Assembly (NCBI GenBank): GCA_002049455.2 | Contig: KV918921.1 | Span: forward strand, 1 to 64,000 | Origin: Porphyra umbilicalis | Taxonomy: Eukaryota > Rhodophyta > Bangiophyceae > Bangiales > Bangiaceae | Length of the DNA: 64,000 nt | Direction of reading: 5' to 3' | Part shown: piece after piece, positions 44,275-55,100 of the stretch | How positions within the stretch are numbered: the stretch's first letter is position 1 | Layout of the letters: the number at the start of each line of letters is the position of its first letter | Made by a program: the position numbers and the translations under genes | Notes under the pieces: generated by a model | The model's input: the letters and a program-made list of their open reading frames with translations, nothing else | Databases searched by the model: none | What the model was told of the DNA's origin: nothing

Positions 44275-46086
44275 GGTCGGCCCGCCGGCGGCGGCGGGGC
44301 GGCGGGCAGCCAACCGTCTGGCGCCAAACGGCGAGGGCGACGGCCACAGGGAGGGGGGGAGATGAAGCTCGGGCGGCCTCGACGGTGCTAGGGACCGGGG
44401 CACGACAGACCGACCGACCGTCGCGGCCGCCGCGCGCAGCGCCGCCAACAACAGCGACGGCAGCGGCCACGGGACGCACGGGCCGCCGTCAGCAGCCCCG
44501 AGCGCGGGGCGCGCCGACGACCGCGCGCGCGCGACGGTTCCCGCCGCGCGGAGCGCGGCCAAAGTGGAGGCTCACCACGACCGGTGCGGGGTCCGGCCGA
44601 GGCAGCCGGGCAAGTTTTTGCGGCACATTCGCGGCGTGACTGGGGACTTTTTTCTTTGAGCTTTGTGCTGGCCACTGTGCGCTGTGTGAATTTCATATAT
44701 ATTTGGTCCGAGGGCCTCTGGGAAGTTGCGCACGGCCTATCTTGTGCATGCAGCATATGCACTTTGCCGCTACTTTCTGCAACGGTAATCGCTATCCGTT
44801 CGACGCAGCCATTGAAGAGCGTCTTTCATGTTCTGAAACATCAAACGTTAGGCCGTAAAAAGAAGTCACTGGTTCTGATGCAGAATCTCGGTTCGCTGTG
44901 CTCGAGCGGTCCAATCACAAGTGGCGACCTTCATTCTTGGCGCGACGCCGCATCTGGGCAGAGTGCCTGTGACGACGTACAGTTTCCCTGGCCTTGAGGT
45001 CAGGGTACAGTGCGTTCTTGTACAAGAGAATCGTTTACAAGGGAATATGGGTGGCGAGTCTTACATTCCAGTCCGGGTAGGCCACTTTTATTCATATTGA
45101 GCTGAATCAGCGACCGTTTTTAATTTCTTTGCGAGCTAGTCCACGTTGCGGGAGTACTTGTTAAGACAGAAAAACACATCCTTTTCGCTCCCTCTGCAGC
45201 CCCAGAAAGTTTCGTCACCGTTTTCGCACTGGGAATGTTGGTACGCGTGGTCGGGTGCCTCGCACCCAGTTGGACGCCATGATGAGGTCTTGCTCACGCG
45301 TACGGTTCGCGACAGTGTTCATAGCACAAGATGCTGGATGGAAAGGGTCTTGAGGCGGGGTGCACGGTCTACGGGGCCCTCTGGCGGTGTGGCACAGAGT
45401 AATGTCGATGGTACTTTAAGAGCGGCGGTTTCAGATGTCTCTGAGGGCGTTTTTTTTGCAGTCAAACGCATGAAAGCAGGATGTTGCGAGGCGCGCGACG
45501 TGGCGGGTGAGACCGCGCCACTGGGCGCGATGCGTCGGGCGGCGAGGATGGTGGGTGACTGACAAACTGCGGGAGGGGCGGCCGGATGGCTCATTTGTCT
45601 GGTGTCCTTGACCAGGTGGCTGGTGTATTTTTTGCAAGCGTGTCAAATAGCAAAGCCAACTCGGGCCAGGGCATTTGCGCGAACGTGCCTTTAGTTTCCC
45701 ATATTTCACTCAGTTTAAATTTTCGCAAGACACATGGGGTGGTCGGATCACGGCGGTGGTGCCGCCTTTGCCGCGTGGCGCCGACCGCGAGCGCCTGCGG
45801 ACACGGCGGCTCTCCTCCACCGCCACCACGGCCGGCTGCCCGGCGGCCACCGCCCCGTGGCGCGGCACCCGGGCGGTGCGTGCGCACCCGCGTGCGCGTG
45901 GCAATCGCTTGCGTCCCCTTGCGGCGGCACGACCAGCCTCGCTCGACCGACCGACGGGCGCGCGCTCGGCGCGCCGCGGAGACCACGGCTGCGGCGGGTG
46001 CCCCCCCCCCACCTTCCAACCCCCCCCCCCGCCATTCCCCTCCCCCCCCCGGCCGCCCCGGCGTGTGCCCCACCCTCCCCGTCACA
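44275..46086. other. Gene-poor spacer, 1.8 kb
   Basis: The first ~350 bp are GC-rich 5' flank of the zinc-ribbon gene. The middle (44640-45590) has the lowest GC of the area, with TTTCATATATATTTGG at 44690-44705. An open frame 45146-45562 (plus) has mixed composition but no domain, and I do not call it. The last part leads into the nuclease gene. Confidence 0.45.
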
Positions 46087-47783
46087 ATGGCCTTCCTCAG
46101 CGTCTCCGTACCGGCGGCCGCCGGCGCCAACCCCCTGCGACCCCGCGCCGGCGCGGTGCTCCACTGCCTCCACCGCCTCGGCGCGGCCGGCACCGCCGCC
46201 GCTGCCGCCGCCACGCGCCCGCCGGCGGCGGTCACCCCAGCGGCCGCCGCCTCTGCCTTTGGCGGCCGCCGCCTGACGACGGGCGTCACGGGGGCCGCCC
46301 GCGGGCGCCGCCGCGGGGGCGCCCCCTGGGCCCCCCCGCCGTCGGCGCCGCCGCCGGTGCCGCCGCACCGGCGGCAGACGGTGGCCATGGCAACGGCGGG
46401 GGCTCCCCCCCCGGCGGCGGCGGCGGGGACCCCCCCGCCCCCCCACCCCTGCGGCCGGCACGGGGCGCTCCTTCCGGCTGGCGCCGTCGGATTTCGCCTT
46501 CCTCTGGGAATCCTGCGCGCGCTGCTTTTACCTAAAGGCCCACGGGCGGCTGTACCGGCCGCGGGCGCCCTTCCCCACCATCTTCAACGCGATTGACTTG
46601 CAGATGAAGCGGTACTATCGGGGGCGCTCCACGGGGGCGGTGCTGCCGGCAATGCCGCGGGGCGAGTTTTTGTGTGAGGACGACGACGCGTCGGTCGAGT
46701 CGGTCCCGCTGAGCGTGCCGGGGCACGCCTCAACAGTGTACTTTCGGGGAAAGGTATGGCGGTGGGGAGGGGGGGGGGGGGTGTGGTCCCCGTGCGGGCG
46801 GACCGTGACGGGGTCGGCCCCGGCGTCGCCTCGTCTGCTCCGCATGCCACCCGGTACGCGGCGAGGCGTGTGGCTGTGTGGGGGTGACGGACCGTCGGGT
46901 GGCTTGCCGCTGCCGTGGTCGCCTCTGCGGCGCGCTCTGCCACGGCGGTGTGCCACCTCTCTTGTACACGCTCAGTGACTCACACCCCATCCGTTGTTTT
47001 CTGGTTGCCCCCGTCGGCGCGCTCGACTCGGCGCGCACGCCACTCGCTCCTTGTCTCTGTCTCCCCCCACTTTTTCTACCCCCTCTGACCCCTCGACCCA
47101 CGCGCGCAGCTCGACTGCCTGGTGCGCGACGAAAACGACGACTATGGGGTCATTGACTTCAAGACGTCGAGCGTCGAAAAGAGCCTCGCCATCTACTCGC
47201 GGCAGCTGCACGCGTACGCGCACGCGCTCGAAACGCCGTCTGACGGCTCGGAGCTGCTCGCCGGGCGGGTGTCCCACATGGGCTTGGTCGTGTACGAGCC
47301 CCGCACGTTTGCGTGCGACGACGTGGGCGTCGCCGCCGCCGCCGCCGCGGCGGCGGTCAACGACGCTGACGCCGACGGGGCGGGCGACACGGGCGGCGAC
47401 GGCGGCGCTATGGCCGACGAGGCTGCGCCCGTTGCCGCGGCTGCCGTTGCAGCCGGCGCCTCCCCCCCCCCCCCCACCCCCACCACCCGGTCGTCAGCGA
47501 CCAAGACGCCGACGACGATGGCCCGCCGGCCGTGTACCAAACGCGCGGCGACACGGTCGCCGCCGACCTCCGCGGCCGCGCCGTGTGGGTGCCCATTGAG
47601 CGGAACGACGCGGCGTTTGGCGCCTTCCTCGCCGACGTGCTGACGGTCCTCGAGCGCCCCGAGCCGCCGCCGCCGGCCAAGGCCAAGTGGGGGAAGAAGG
47701 GCCGCCTCGCCTGCACCTACTGCCAGTTTATCGAGGACGTGCGGGCGGGGAACTTGGCCTACTCGGGGCGCCTCGCCGAGTGA
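46087..47783 (+). CDS. PD-(D/E)XK nuclease with cysteine pairs, two exons, frame breaks at C runs
   Basis: Exon 1 starts at 46087 (MAFLSVSVPAAAGANPLRPR, organelle-leader-like) and ends at 46753; exon 2 is 47110-47783. After C runs near 46410-46441 the frame changes to SDFAFLWESCARCFYLKAHG then RLYRPRAPFPTIFNAIDLQM. Splicing AAG/CTC gives YFRGKLDCLVRDENDDYGVI then DFKTSSVEKSLAIYSRQLHA, the D..(D)xK core of a PD-(D/E)XK nuclease followed by the Q/Y helix. Exon 2 has HMGLVVYEPRTF and an Ala-rich insert. A break at the C run 47463-47476 is followed by VWVPIERNDAAFGAFLADVL and CTYCQFIEDVRAG. The same layout occurs in bacterial and algal Cas4/RecB-like nucleases. The CxxC pairs at both ends could hold an iron-sulfur cluster or Zn, as in Cas4, AddB and Exo5. 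Substrate unknown; probably organellar DNA processing. Confidence 0.75.
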
Positions 47784-48027: not shown

Positions 48028-48921
48028 TTACTTGTCCTTCCTTGTTCCCGCCGCCGTGGTCGTCGGCGCCCGCCGCGTGGCGCCGGCGCCCGCCTTGCGC
48101 CGGCGCGCGGTGGTGGTCGCGGCGCCCTTGGCGTCCCCCGCCGCCGTCACCGCCGCCGGCGCGGCGGCCGCGGCCGGCGCACCGCCGCCCGCCGCCGGCG
48201 CCGCGTCCGCGTCCGCGTCGGCCCCCTCGTCGGCGCCCTCGGGCGGGGTGCCCGACAGCAGCGCCATGAGCGGGTTGGCTTCGGGCTTGAACGGCCGCGC
48301 GAGCGCCTCCACCGCCGGCCGCCCGAGGACGTGCAGTTGGAAGAGGGGCTCCTCCACCAGCCGCGCCAGCCCCGTCGCCGACGTGATCACCAGCGGGTTG
48401 AGGGAGCCCATCTTGAGGTGAAACACCGACAGCAGCAGCGCGTTGAAGAGGAGGCCCCGACGGACCGACGCGAGCACCGACAGGTCATACTCCTCGGTCG
48501 ACATCACCTCGGGCGCGGCGGCCTCGGCGGCCTCGGCCGCCGGCTCTGCGGCCGCCGCCGCTGCCGCGCCGCGCCGCTTGCGGCCGCCCGTGCCGGAGGT
48601 GGCGTCCACGGTCGCGTCGACCTCCTCCTCCCCCTCCTTGGCGGTGGCCGCGTCAGCAGCCGCCGACGCCTCCGCCGACGCTTCGGAAAAGGCGGCAAAC
48701 GGGCTGGCCGGCTTGGGCGGCACCGTCACGGGCGCCGTCTCCTTCTTGGCCAAGATGCGGGAGCGGATGTACAGCTGGACGGCCAGGGAGATGGCCATGT
48801 AGACGACAAAGATGACGCGGCATACGGCAATGATCCGCGGGTCCTTCTGGTCGACCTTCTTCAGCACCGAAATCGCTGCGAGAGTGATGGCCATCTGCTT
48901 GACGCCGCCGGGGAGCACCAT
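48028..48921 (-). CDS. PHO88/SND3 family ER membrane protein
   Basis: An intact 297-residue frame from MVLPGGVKQMAITLAAISVL (48921) to a TAA at 48028. The PHO88 landmarks are all present: VLKKVDQKDPRIIAVCRVIF, VVYMAISLAVQLYIRSRILA, then after a spacer MSTEEYDLSVLASVRRGLLF, HLKMGSLNPLVITS and QLHVLGRPAVEALARPFKPE. There are two membrane helices before the spacer and one around LLFNALLLSVFHLKMG. In yeast the protein (188 residues) is Snd3, part of the SRP-independent ER targeting route, first found as a phosphate-transport gene. Here a ~55-residue acidic/Ala insert and a ~90-residue Ala/Lys/Arg C-terminal tail ending RRKAGAGATRRAP..GTRKDK lengthen it. Upstream in-frame Met codons exist up to 49143, but 48921 aligns with the family N-terminus. 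Confidence 0.85.
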   Translation of the reverse strand: MVLPGGVKQMAITLAAISVLKKVDQKDPRIIAVCRVIFVVYMAISLAVQLYIRSRILAKKETAPVTVPPKPASPFAAFSEASAEASAAADAATAKEGEEEVDATVDATSGTGGRKRRGAAAAAAAEPAAEAAEAAAPEVMSTEEYDLSVLASVRRGLLFNALLLSVFHLKMGSLNPLVITSATGLARLVEEPLFQLHVLGRPAVEALARPFKPEANPLMALLSGTPPEGADEGADADADAAPAAGGGAPAAAAAPAAVTAAGDAKGAATTTARRRKAGAGATRRAPTTTAAGTRKDK

Positions 48922-51056
48922 GGTGGGCGCCGGGGGGGGGGCACCGTACCAGCCAAGGGGCAGCGCCGCGCCGAGCGGCGTGGGGTAACGCAGAGCAGTA
49001 AAGCCGACGAGGGCAAACGACGCAAGAGTCGTGGTGGGGGCAAGAGTGCGACACCCGCGTGGCACGGGACTGAGGTGCCCAAAAAAAGAAACGGCCAGTG
49101 TGGACACGGCCGTGGAGGACCCGACGGCAAGTGCTGTCCCCACGGGCCCTGCGCAGGTTTTCGCGGCGGCCGCAGTCTCTGTTTGTGGCTGCCAAACGGC
49201 CAGCTGATGTCACGTTCAATCCAACTGCGTCGTAATTCCGCCTTTCGAAGAGAGCTGACAGTTCCACGACAGGCTTTTTCTCGTGCCTGGAAGCGCCAAC
49301 TGACACTATACAAATAGAAGTTGTTTTTAAGTTCATAGGGCTCGATGTCTAGTAGCACCCCTAATAAATCCGCTGAACAACTTCTTCTGGGTTCAAACCA
49401 GGATCAATTCCAGATGCTCAAATCCAAACTGAGGATCTGTTGTCGCAGCCGCCGTGCGGCGCGGCGATGCGACACCGCCGTCGATGTTGCCCTTGAAGCT
49501 AACCGACGACGACGCGGTGGCGGGGGCATCCCCAGCAATGTGCCGCCCAGTGGCGAGCGACACCCGATGGTGCCGTTGCAGTTTGTGACCTGACGTCTGT
49601 GGTCATACGCTATCCCGCTCTACCATGGAATCCCGCTGAATCGTCCTCTCCGCCCGGGCGTGGCGTTGGGCTTTTGGGGCGTCGCCATATTCTCCGCGTC
49701 CGCCCTCCTTGGCGTCGACGCCTCGCTGCCCCTGCCCGCTGGAGGCGGCACGACGTAGTGGCTGCGGCATTGGTGCTGGTCTGTGTTTTTTCATAGCGCG
49801 GTTCTATGGCGGTATCCGGCATCACTGGCGCTACTTGAGCACTCGGTACGTACCACCGATCCTCTTTTTTTTTCTTTCCACCCCCTCCTGCCCTGTTCTC
49901 CTTGATGTATAAGTACTTGCACCACTCTGACGCTTTGTCGTATGCGGAGACATCAGTATACAATCACCATCTTTCGACTGAGGGAACTGGCAATGCCATC
50001 ACGTCCGCCCATTGCTCCACCTCGACGTGTGCATTGAGACTAACCTCTCGTTCTTTCTCGCTGGTGTTTGGCTGTGCCTGGGCTGCTGGTTCTTTGCATG
50101 TGGCATGTCCTTTCGACTCGTAGGCGCGCCGGTAGTGTTTTCTTTTGGGCTACCTACCAATGGAGCAGAATTGACCACACGTCCTTCCTAACGCAATGTA
50201 TTCCAACCCGCTGCAGGTACGTTGTGGTTGACTCCCCCGGTTGGTCGATCGCGACGCGTCAGTCACCCCCCCCACACCCACCTCGTTCCCGTGATTAAAC
50301 AAAAGCGATTCATGCACCACGATCGGAGCCGGGACCGCGACGCTCTGGCGCCGTCGGACCCCCTGACGTACAACAATCCCGGCGTCTTCACGTCATCTAT
50401 GAGGAAACAACAGCGGGCGCAGCAGCCCGCTGGGGTGGCGCTCCTACCGTGGTACGGGCAGGGGCTTTTCGGCCGCTTTGGCTGCCGGCGCCAGTGGCTG
50501 ACCGTCGCCCACTTGTTGCTCTTTTCGTTGTTTCCTGCACGCGTCTGGCCTATTGCTGCAGGCGATCATTCATGGAACGATGATCTTTCTCGCTGCTGCA
50601 GCAGCATCCGTGCGCTTGGCCGTTGGGGCTCCTGTTTGGTTCAACGAGAGCAAAAGCGGGCGCCCCGTTGCGTCGCGTGCAGCACCCTTATTGCACGAGG
50701 TCCGTCTGAGCGCGTTTGTGGTCCTTTGTATCCCCAGCGGGCTCCTTTGCCTCTGCGGGACTGTCGCGGCTCTTCGTTTTACATGTCCATTCCTGCCCGT
50801 CCTCTACGCCTGGCTTTTGCTCGTAGCACTTGAGAGTCAGCCTTCGTGTGTGCCTAATGTCGGCCACGGGGCCTCATCCCACTACAGCAAGGCCGTGCGA
50901 CCAACACACACACAACTCTGGGGTCAACCTGTACAAGATACTCGCCAGCAGGGACGCAGCCGCTTGCCGTACGGCGCGCAGCACCAACGCAGAAAAACAA
51001 GCAAACAAGACACAAACACAAGCAGAGGACCGCACCCCCCCCCCCCCCCCGGCGTC
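48922..51056. other. Lower-GC region, possibly holding an unresolved multi-exon gene
   Basis: Several good splice signals occur on the plus strand. Acceptor ttttttcatag before 49797 pairs with donor cg/gtacgt at 49846. An exon 50124-50216 (93 bp) has acceptor ctcgtag and donor cag/gtacgt. Another acceptor, tattgctgcag, ends at 50561. The first two exons join to HHWRYLSTRRAGSVFFWATY then QWSRIDHTSFLTQC. The last opens a hydrophobic frame AIIHGTMIFLAAAAASVRLA then AFVVLCIPSGLLCLCGTVAA, but the phases of these do not match, so an exon is missing or one model is wrong. A small membrane protein is plausible. Nothing in it matches a family I know. Confidence 0.3.
50562..50833 (+). CDS. Candidate terminal exon of a membrane protein
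   Basis: Following a consensus acceptor, the frame encodes two hydrophobic segments, TMIFLAAAAASVRLAVGAPV and LSAFVVLCIPSGLLCLCGTV, then FLPVLYAWLLLVALES. It is A/T-richer than surrounding GC DNA yet open. The frame stays open beyond 50833 into the antisense of the next gene, so the true end is uncertain. No homolog recognised. Confidence 0.25.
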
Positions 51057-51739
51057 TCAATCCACAATACCGTGCTCCCACTCGTCCATCGCGTCCAACA
51101 AGACGTCTGCAACGGAGCCGACCCAGCCCGTCCCCCCCCCGCGGCCACCCACGTGTCTTGCACCGCCCCCCTGAGGCGGGAGAAGCCCACAACGTCCCCC
51201 ACCCGCCACCGGCCGACCGCGTACGAAACGATCGTCGCCGCCGCCACGCCGCCCGTGTCGGCCGCCCGCGCGAGCGCCGCGCCCGGCAGCTCTGCATCGT
51301 CAACGACGGGCGCGACGGGCGGCGGCACGACGACGCCCGCGCCGCCGGTCATGCCGCCGCCGCCCCCCCCCCCCCCCCCACCGCCGCCGCCGACGCCCGC
51401 ACCGCCGCTCGCACCGGCGGCGGGGCCGCCACCGCCCTCGTCCCCCCCCCCGCCGCCCTCCCCGTACCGCGCGTTATCGTCGGCGGCGAGGCGCGCGAGC
51501 GTGCGCGGCAAGTCGGCCAGCGCCCGCTCCGTCGCGGCGAGCGTGAGGACGGTCCGCCGCTCGACCGACGCGGGGGCGGCGGCGATCGCCGCGCCGAGGC
51601 GGAGGAGCGACGCCAGGTACCCGTCCGCGTCGGCCGCCTCGGCCGCGCGCGCAAACGCCGCGTCGGCGGGGGAGGCGTCGGCGCCGCCGCCGTCGGCGGC
51701 GGCCGCCGCGTCGGCGGCGGCCGCCCCCGCCCCGGCGCG

Positions 51740-51775
<36 letters not shown>

Positions 51776-52090
51776 CAGCGCGAGCGGCTTGGCGTGCGCC
51801 GGGGCGGCAACGAGGGCGGCGACGCGGGCGACAATGGCGGCGGCGACGAGGCCGGTCGTCACGGGGGCGGCGAGGCAGGTGGCCACCCGCCCCGCCGTGG
51901 CCGCCGGCAGCGCGCGGCGGGTGATGGCGGCGAGGGTGGCGGCGGCGGCGGGGGTCAACTCGCCCTTGCGCGCGGCCGCGTCGAGCGTGAACGCGACGGT
52001 CTTGACTTCCCCTTCCGGGTGCACCGCCAAGGCCGACGCGGCGCCAATCGCGACCGTGAGGCTAATCAAGAGGGAGCCATACTCCCCGCC

Positions 52091-52138
<48 letters not shown>

Positions 52139-55100
52139 ACCACCACCACCTCCGTCGGCCGCCCCCGACGCGGCCGCTTCCGCGTAGCGGTCAACGAGGG
52201 CGTCGGCCAGCTGCCCGTAGCGCTCCGCGCTGTCCCCCACGGCGGCGCGCAGGTAGGCGGCCGGCGCGGCGGGCGGGGGCGCCCACCCGTCCGCCCCACA
52301 CCCGTCGGTCAGCGAGTGCACCTTGCCGTCGGGCGGCCGGTCACCAAACGACGGGGCGGCGAGGAGGGTGTCAACCCCCGCCCCCGCGTCGGCGTCAAAG
52401 GCGGCCGACCAGGCGCCTTGGGCCTCCCACACCTTGCGCTTAACGTCGAGCGGGAGGCCGGCGTAGGGGGGTTTGGCGGGCGCCGCCGCCGCCAACTCGG
52501 CGAGCAGGTGCTCGGGCGGGTCGGGCAGGTGCACGAGGGCGGCGGTCGGCACGGGCGCCAAGTGAGGGGTCGTCAAGTGGGGGGCCGCCACCTCGAGGAG
52601 CGCCTCCATGGCGTCGGCCGTGGCGGGCGGGAGGGTGGGGGCGGCGGCGGCGGCGGCGCCGCGGCCGCCGCCGTCCCCCGCGCCGCCCGTGCCGACGCCG
52701 CCGGCGGTGATGGAGGCGACGAGCTTGTCGACCATGTAGGTGAGGACGCGCGCGTGCACCTCTGCGTGCGTCAAGCCCGACGCGGTGAGGAGCGTTAGTG
52801 CCGGCTCCGCCGCCGCCGGCAGGTTGTGGGTGCGTTGAAAGGCGGCGATAAAGGCAGCCACGTTGGGGTGGTCTCCCGACAGCTGCTCGAGGAGGTACCG
52901 CTTGCCGGCGGCGCCGATGAGGGGCGAGTCGGGCAGAACAACCGGCGGCCCGACCGACGAGGCGGGGGACGTTCCGCCAACGTCCCCGTCGGCAGCGTCG
53001 CCGTCAATGTCCATCTCATCGTCTGAGAGGGCGTCGCCGTCGCCCCCGCCGCCGCCCCCTCCGTCGTCGTCGTCGTACATGGCATCGTCATTGTCGGCCC
53101 CGCCACCGCCGCCGCCCGCGTCGCAAAAAGCGCCCCCGTCCCCACCGGGGGGACAACGGGCTGGCCCTCTGCCGTCGGCGTCGTGGCGGGAGGGCTCCCG
53201 CCCGCGGGATGCCCGCCACCGTCGTCGCCGCCGGCAGGTGCGGCGCTCATGGCACCGTCGCCGCCAGCGTCGGCGGCCGCCGCCGCCACGGGTGCGGCGG
53301 CCCCAACCGGCGGGCCACTCGCCGTCGGGACGGCGGCGAGTGCGCCACTGGCGGCGGGACGGCCGCCACCGTCATTGTCGCTGGCGGGCGCGCCACTCAT
53401 CCCACGGTCGGTGGCAGCGTTGCCGCCCGCCGTCGTCGTTTGGTCAGCGGCCGCCGTCGCTGCCGCGGGCTCTGCTGCGGCCGTCGCCGCCGCCGCGTCG
53501 GTGCGAGCACCCGCACCGTCTGCGGCGCCGACGGCGGGCAGTGTCGACGTCGCCACGGGCGACGTGGCTGGCCCCGGCGCCGGCGCCGACGCCAGCACGC
53601 GCAGCGTCTCTGCCGCCCGCGCCGCCGGCGCCACCGCCGCTGGCGCCACAGACACGGCGCCACCCCTGTTCGGTAGTCCACTCAGCGGCGGCGTCGGCGG
53701 CGGCGCCACGGAAGCGGCGCCACCCCCCATCGGCGATCCACTCAGCGGCGGCGGCGGCGGCAGTGGCGGCAGCGGCGGCGGCAAAGGCAACGGCGGGGCG
53801 CCGGCAGCGCCGCCGGTGCTCCCCGTCCCCGCCCCCGACACGGTGGGGGCGCCACTCGGCGTCGCCCCCCCCCCCCCACGACCACCCACTCGGAGCGCAC
53901 CGTCGACGGGGACGACAGGGCCGTGGCGACGGGCGACGGCAGCGGCGGCCGCGCCGGCGCCGGCGGCGGCGACGTTGCCGGCGGCGGCGGGCCGGGCGTC
54001 GCGGGGGGGGCACCGGCGACGCCACAACCGACGGCAGGCGGGGGGTCGCGGGGGGGCGACCGGTGACGCGGCCACCGAGGGGGGGGGGTCGGCACGGCCG
54101 CCGCCGCCACGGGGGAACCCGTGGGGGGGGGGGGGGGGCGCCCGCCGCTGCGACCGGCGACGGAGGGGCGGGGGCGGCGGCGGGTGCGCGCGAGGCGGCG
54201 GCCGCACTTGCGGGGCGGGCACACCGTCGGCGGCGGCAGCGAGCGACGCGGCAGCGGGCGACACGGCAGCGGGCGACACGGCAGCGAGCGACGCGGCAGC
54301 GGGTGACGCGGCAGCGGGCGACACGGCAGCGGGCGACACGGCAGCGGGCGACACGGCAGCGGGCGACACGGCAGCGGGCGACACGGCAGCGGGCGACACG
54401 GCAGCGGGCGAAACGGAAGCGGGCAACACGGAAGCGGGCGACGCGGCAGCGGGCGACGCGGCAGCGGGCGACGCGGCAGCGGGCGACGCGGCAGCGGGCG
54501 ACGCGGCAGCGGGCGACGCGGCAGCGGGCGACGCGGCAGCGGGCGGGGCGGCAGCGGGCGGGGCGGCAGCGGACGGGGCGGCAGCGGGCGCGGCGGTCGG
54601 CTGCTGCGTCGCCGCCGCCGCGGGAGCCGCCACGCTCACGGGCGTGGGGGCGGCAGCGGCAAAGGCGCCGCCGCCGCCGCCGGCGAATGGCACGGGCAGC
54701 GGCGTGGCGGGCGCGCCCGGTGCAACACGTGCCGCCGCCACCGCGGCAGTCGTCGAGGCAGCCGCCGTGGCGGCAGCTGGCGCAGCCGCCACAGCCGCCA
54801 ACGGCGCCGCGCCCGTCGCGTCCACCGCGCCCGCCGCGCCCGCCGCGCCCGCCGCGTCGGCAGCCGACGCGGCCGCCGTCGTTGCCGCCGCCGGTACCGC
54901 CGGCAGCGTTGCCGACGGCGCCATGGACGGTGTTGCGTGCGCCGCCGCCGGCCGTGGCGCCGCTGACCTTGTCGACGGCGCCGCCGTCGGTGACGCCGCC
55001 GGTACCGGCGGCGGTGTGGTCGGCCGAGCCGCCGCCGACGCTGCTCGAGGTGCCGCCGGCGGGACCGCCGCCGGCGCCCCAGTGGCAGCCGACGGGCGTG

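Follow-up and report, generated by a model that had tools for sequence, protein, structure and literature searches.

The window analysed here, a stretch of 64,000 nucleotides, carries on its minus strand a probable NELF-B gene (51057..53080), which runs from an ATG at 53080 to a stop codon ending at 51057 and requires one change of frame in its 3' part. A Pho88-family gene lies downstream on the same strand (48028..49209; Pfam PF10032, E 1.3e-30). In animals, NELF-B, also named COBRA1, holds RNA polymerase II just after the gene start. The main reading frame spans 53371-50924 on the minus strand and comprises 815 codons; reading from the ATG at 53080 yields 649 residues as far as a run of nine cytosines on the plus strand (51132..51140). 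The remaining 25 residues, GTGWVGSVADVLLDAMDEWEHGIVD, and the stop occupy a second minus-strand frame (51057..51134), and we infer that this tail is part of the same protein. The interval proposed in a preliminary description of this DNA, 51057-53080, fits this ATG-to-stop reading. All the signature strings quoted there also occur on this strand. The main frame contains VHARVLTYMVDKLVASI, PHLAPV...HLPDPPEHLL and LPLDVKRKVWEAQGAW, but the last one, WVGSVADVLLDAMDEWEHGI, sits in the second frame (51057-51134).

The change of frame ahead of the 25-codon tail can be explained either by an intron or by a length error in the run of nine cytosines. A scan for introns of at most 400 bases whose removal would keep a single reading frame open through to the stop returned 202 GT/GC-AG pairs; 58 of them have GT donors, and 28 of those 58 GT-AG pairs keep the motif DVLLDAMDEW. 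A possible 3' splice site, a pyrimidine-rich stretch ending in CGCCTCAG at 51171 (51171..51193, minus strand), is among the acceptors of these 28 pairs; splicing at this position is putative. Within the main frame, GC content amounts to 91% at third codon positions (0.91) versus 64% at second positions (0.64), a contrast that we read as the coding pattern of a GC-rich genome. The protein contains five glycine runs. The longest, of 23 glycines (residues 310-332; 52085..52153, minus strand), is located C-terminal to the conserved N-terminal block, and the other four are 5 to 13 residues long.

The block itself comprises ~165 N-terminal residues of the algal protein (residues 55-219; 52424..52918, minus strand), which are co-linear with residues 8-151 of human NELF-B and reach a Smith-Waterman score of 93 with the glycine-masked protein. 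None of 1000 shuffles of either sequence attains this score, the maxima being 55 and 64, and the reversed sequence scores 35 against human NELF-B. Among the 361 frames of at least 100 amino acids in the window, itself counted, the NELF-B frame is the top scorer, followed by frames scoring 67 and 52. BLASTP without SEG filtering assigns the same block an E of 6e-7 at 26% identity, the composition-adjusted search without SEG an E of 5e-9 for algal residues 78-223 against human 30-155, and phmmer an E of 1.5e-6 for the pair. With SEG switched on, BLASTP finds nothing significant between the two proteins (best E 0.89). A co-linear homologous N-terminal domain, one of the features by which membership of NELF-B was judged, is present, though BLASTP with SEG fails to detect it.

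The strongest part of the similarity, PHLAPV...HLPDPPEHLL...LPLDVKRKVWEAQ (52418..52612, minus strand), corresponds to human residues 92-153 and holds the top PDB match, the phmmer domain (E 4.4e-6) and the genome match. When PDB sequences were searched with 52200-52960, a query whose trimming was not blind as it followed the glycine-dominated result of the full frame, NELF-B accounted for the first six of the 12 matches (E 0.032-0.1; 177,635 sequences compared), with a best single-domain E of 0.25. Human NELF-B itself retrieves the same number of NELF-B sequences, six, from this library. Searching in the opposite direction, with human NELF-B (527 aa) against the 83.8-Mb genome (665 contigs), gave a single match up to E 10, located at this gene, with an E of 0.549 that is not significant on its own. 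The core is recovered in both search directions. Homology to NELF-B is well supported for the N-terminal block.

The preliminary description extended the likeness to the whole length of NELF-B. This is borne out for the N-terminal ~165 residues but not demonstrably for the C-terminal half, where the observed score against human NELF-B was reached by 826 of 1000 shuffles with gap penalties of 11/1 and by 573 of 1000 with 7/1. The corresponding counts per 1000 shuffles were 473 and 47 for the middle piece and 918 and 359 for the tail (11/1 and 7/1, respectively). A 92-residue middle piece has no match among PDB sequences up to E 10. In the PDB search with the full frame, which returned 199 matches up to E 10, NELF-B was not among the best 60; these 60 overlap the glycine-rich stretches and are dominated by glycine-linker fusions and antibody fragments.

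The preliminary description had also tied its identification to a profile hit and to the absence of a better hit in another HEAT-repeat family. Taken to the letter, the profile search goes against it: Pfam COBRA1 (PF06209) matches neither the frame nor its pieces, even at E 10, and nothing was found in a search of the whole genome. HMMER filters and composition may contribute to this miss; because the cut-off of the Pfam COBRA1 profile is not attained, we term the gene a probable NELF-B. Three other Pfam matches were seen, in two of the five protein pieces: Keratin_2_head (E 0.0062), Ldr_toxin (E 0.042) and DUF4813 (E 1.1). All three are weak and fall short of their cut-offs, and none represents a HEAT-repeat family. 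The reciprocal comparisons favour NELF-B.

Compared with human NELF-B (COBRA1; PDB 7ycx chain f and others), the algal protein shares ~150 co-linear N-terminal residues with an HLPxxPE...VKRxxW core. It differs in its low identity over this block, in the lack of a significant alignment for the C-terminal half, where a HEAT-like region would be expected, and in its additional glycine runs and acidic N-terminal extension. AlphaFold models computed without an alignment are helical both for the 649 residues and for the 253 N-terminal residues, with mean pLDDT values of 38.2 and 38.9; at this level, helical models are not evidence of a fold and are unusable.

The second-best frame of the window (45719-46273, plus strand; score 67) was dismissed, its match running into the low-complexity Pro/Ala-rich end of human NELF-B. 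Shuffling this frame 500 times gives scores of up to 60, and Pfam matches are absent from it.

The genome had been described as alga-like, and its gene content allows a closer assignment. It holds ten antenna-protein matches, and the two tested both have their best PDB match to a chain of 7y5e, which we take to be from Porphyridium, itself a red alga. There are also twelve phycobilisome-linker matches: four lie on a contig of 185 kb (C665) that is apparently the plastid genome, and the remaining eight are spread over seven further contigs. The antenna-protein and linker matches together indicate that the organism is a red alga.

A gene for NELF-C/D, the search for which had been suggested along with that for NELF-A, is present in the same genome. 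The Pfam TH1 profile matches 110468-110797 on the minus strand of contig C101 above its cut-off (29.5 bits), and the translated piece has an E of 6.1e-8 against TH1. Used as a PDB query, this piece finds NELF-C/D as the first seven of ten matches (E 0.0015-0.0063). The C101 protein scores 93 against human NELF-C/D, compared with a mean of 33 and a maximum of 54 in 500 shuffles, and the score of a second co-linear block upstream was reached by one of 500 shuffles. The presence of this partner gene provides independent support for the identity of NELF-B. The NELF-C/D frame (C101:110075-112609) comprises 845 codons and contains long glycine and alanine tracts.

Both DSIF subunits are found as well, Spt5 by its NGN domain (E 1.3e-16) and Spt4 with an E of 4.1e-23. 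A human NELF-A query and the PF23553 profile match nothing in the genome, in searches run without a positive control; this negative is weak, since the COBRA1 search of this genome likewise failed to pick up the NELF-B gene. Separately, a second Spt4 match at C516:33209-33286 is partial (positions 1-26 of 77, E 2.1e-5) and perhaps represents a fragment or an exon.

Three loci for largest RNA polymerase subunits were found outside C665, and the one on contig C97, alone of the three examined in sequence, was taken as RPB1. The PDB entries that it matches with an E of 1e-100 or lower, 20 in number, are named RPB1, RNA polymerase II largest subunit or RNA polymerase (subunit). Its last 266 residues contain 24 Ser-Pro pairs, but the pattern Y[ST]Px[STY]Px occurs there only four times, with two of the copies in tandem. 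Judged from these residues, the heptads of RPB1 in this red alga are mostly degenerate.

The preliminary description suggested that NELF-B in such a genome would push the pausing machinery deep into eukaryote history. This is already published: PMC11482795 describes NELF-B and NELF-C/D as widespread in eukaryotes and probably ancestral to them, with losses in land plants, yeasts and C. elegans. It also reports higher pausing indices in species with the core pair than in those without NELF, and strong evidence for NELF-E in metazoans only. For a green alga, Chlorella variabilis, homologues of NELF-A and -C are reported in PMC4940160. An older review (PMC4215175) held that simpler species seem either to lack NELF or to have it in incomplete form, and PMC12716044 finds no NELF in Paramecium; the distribution of NELF is thus patchy. 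For red algae, a limited literature search, which included PMC4215175, found no report of NELF, and the supplementary table of PMC11482795 may already include them. The core pair of non-animal eukaryotes, as presented in PMC11482795, resembles the situation here in that both genes and DSIF occur together. The red alga differs in its mostly degenerate RPB1 C-terminal repeat, and NELF-A was not found in it by the searches without a positive control. The red-algal gene appears to add a probable new member to an already widely known eukaryotic family.

We consider the gene to be very probably the NELF-B of this red alga, a divergent and glycine-expanded orthologue. That the likeness might instead stem from composition, the gene encoding an unrelated alanine-rich alpha-helical protein, would agree with the missing Pfam COBRA1 match, the loss of the BLASTP match upon SEG filtering, the strong Ala/Gly/Pro bias and a genome match that is weak by itself. 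However, composition-preserving shuffles never attain the score of the block and the reversed sequence stays far below it. The remaining frames of the window do not exceed 67, and that value belongs to the match with the Pro/Ala-rich end of human NELF-B. With the core recovered by both the PDB and the genome search, we regard a purely compositional origin as very improbable.

A different question is whether a homologue of NELF-B would still act in pausing. The shift of frame ahead of the final 25 codons, the unrecognisable C-terminal half and the five glycine runs could be seen as signs of decay, in a gene that has either adopted another role or is being lost. Yet 649 codons remain open from the ATG with the GC contrast between third and second positions, the NELF-C/D gene is retained in the same genome, and the frame change can be accounted for by an intron or by an error in homopolymer length. 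Loss of the pausing function is in our opinion unlikely, albeit less so than a compositional artefact. The orthologue reading is the one followed below, and we lean toward a pausing role for the algal protein with distinctly less assurance than toward its identity.

As the conserved part is N-terminal and the partner gene is present, the simplest model is a core pair of NELF-B and NELF-C/D acting on RNA polymerase II together with DSIF. In the human complex, according to PMC4940160, NELF-AC touches NELF-B chiefly via NELF-C and the N-terminal region of NELF-B. By analogy, the conserved N-terminal part of algal NELF-B would contact NELF-C/D and so make up the core pair, which, along with DSIF (Spt4-Spt5), would bind RNA polymerase II and slow its early elongation. 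Both the contact between the two subunits and the pausing role are carried over from the human complex in this model.

The probable red-algal core-NELF gene pair extends a family that earlier work had considered ancestral to eukaryotes; less ordinary is its occurrence alongside an RPB1 with mostly degenerate heptads. We tentatively propose that the red alga keeps core NELF (B and C/D) and DSIF despite the largely degenerated heptads of its polymerase, and that NELF-dependent slowing of early RNA polymerase II could work, and be released, without a canonical heptad array. This combined proposal is possible rather than probable. The degraded polymerase tail makes the lineage a natural case for asking whether heptad repeats are needed for NELF-type pausing.

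Elsewhere in the window, 20 further frames of at least 300 amino acids, out of 70 listed, were compared with Pfam, and 19 of these have no match at E 0.001; in DNA this rich in GC, many long frames are probably non-genic. Between 54233 and 54590, a GC-rich unit of 15 bases is present in 23.9 tandem copies, and long frames are open on both strands in this part.
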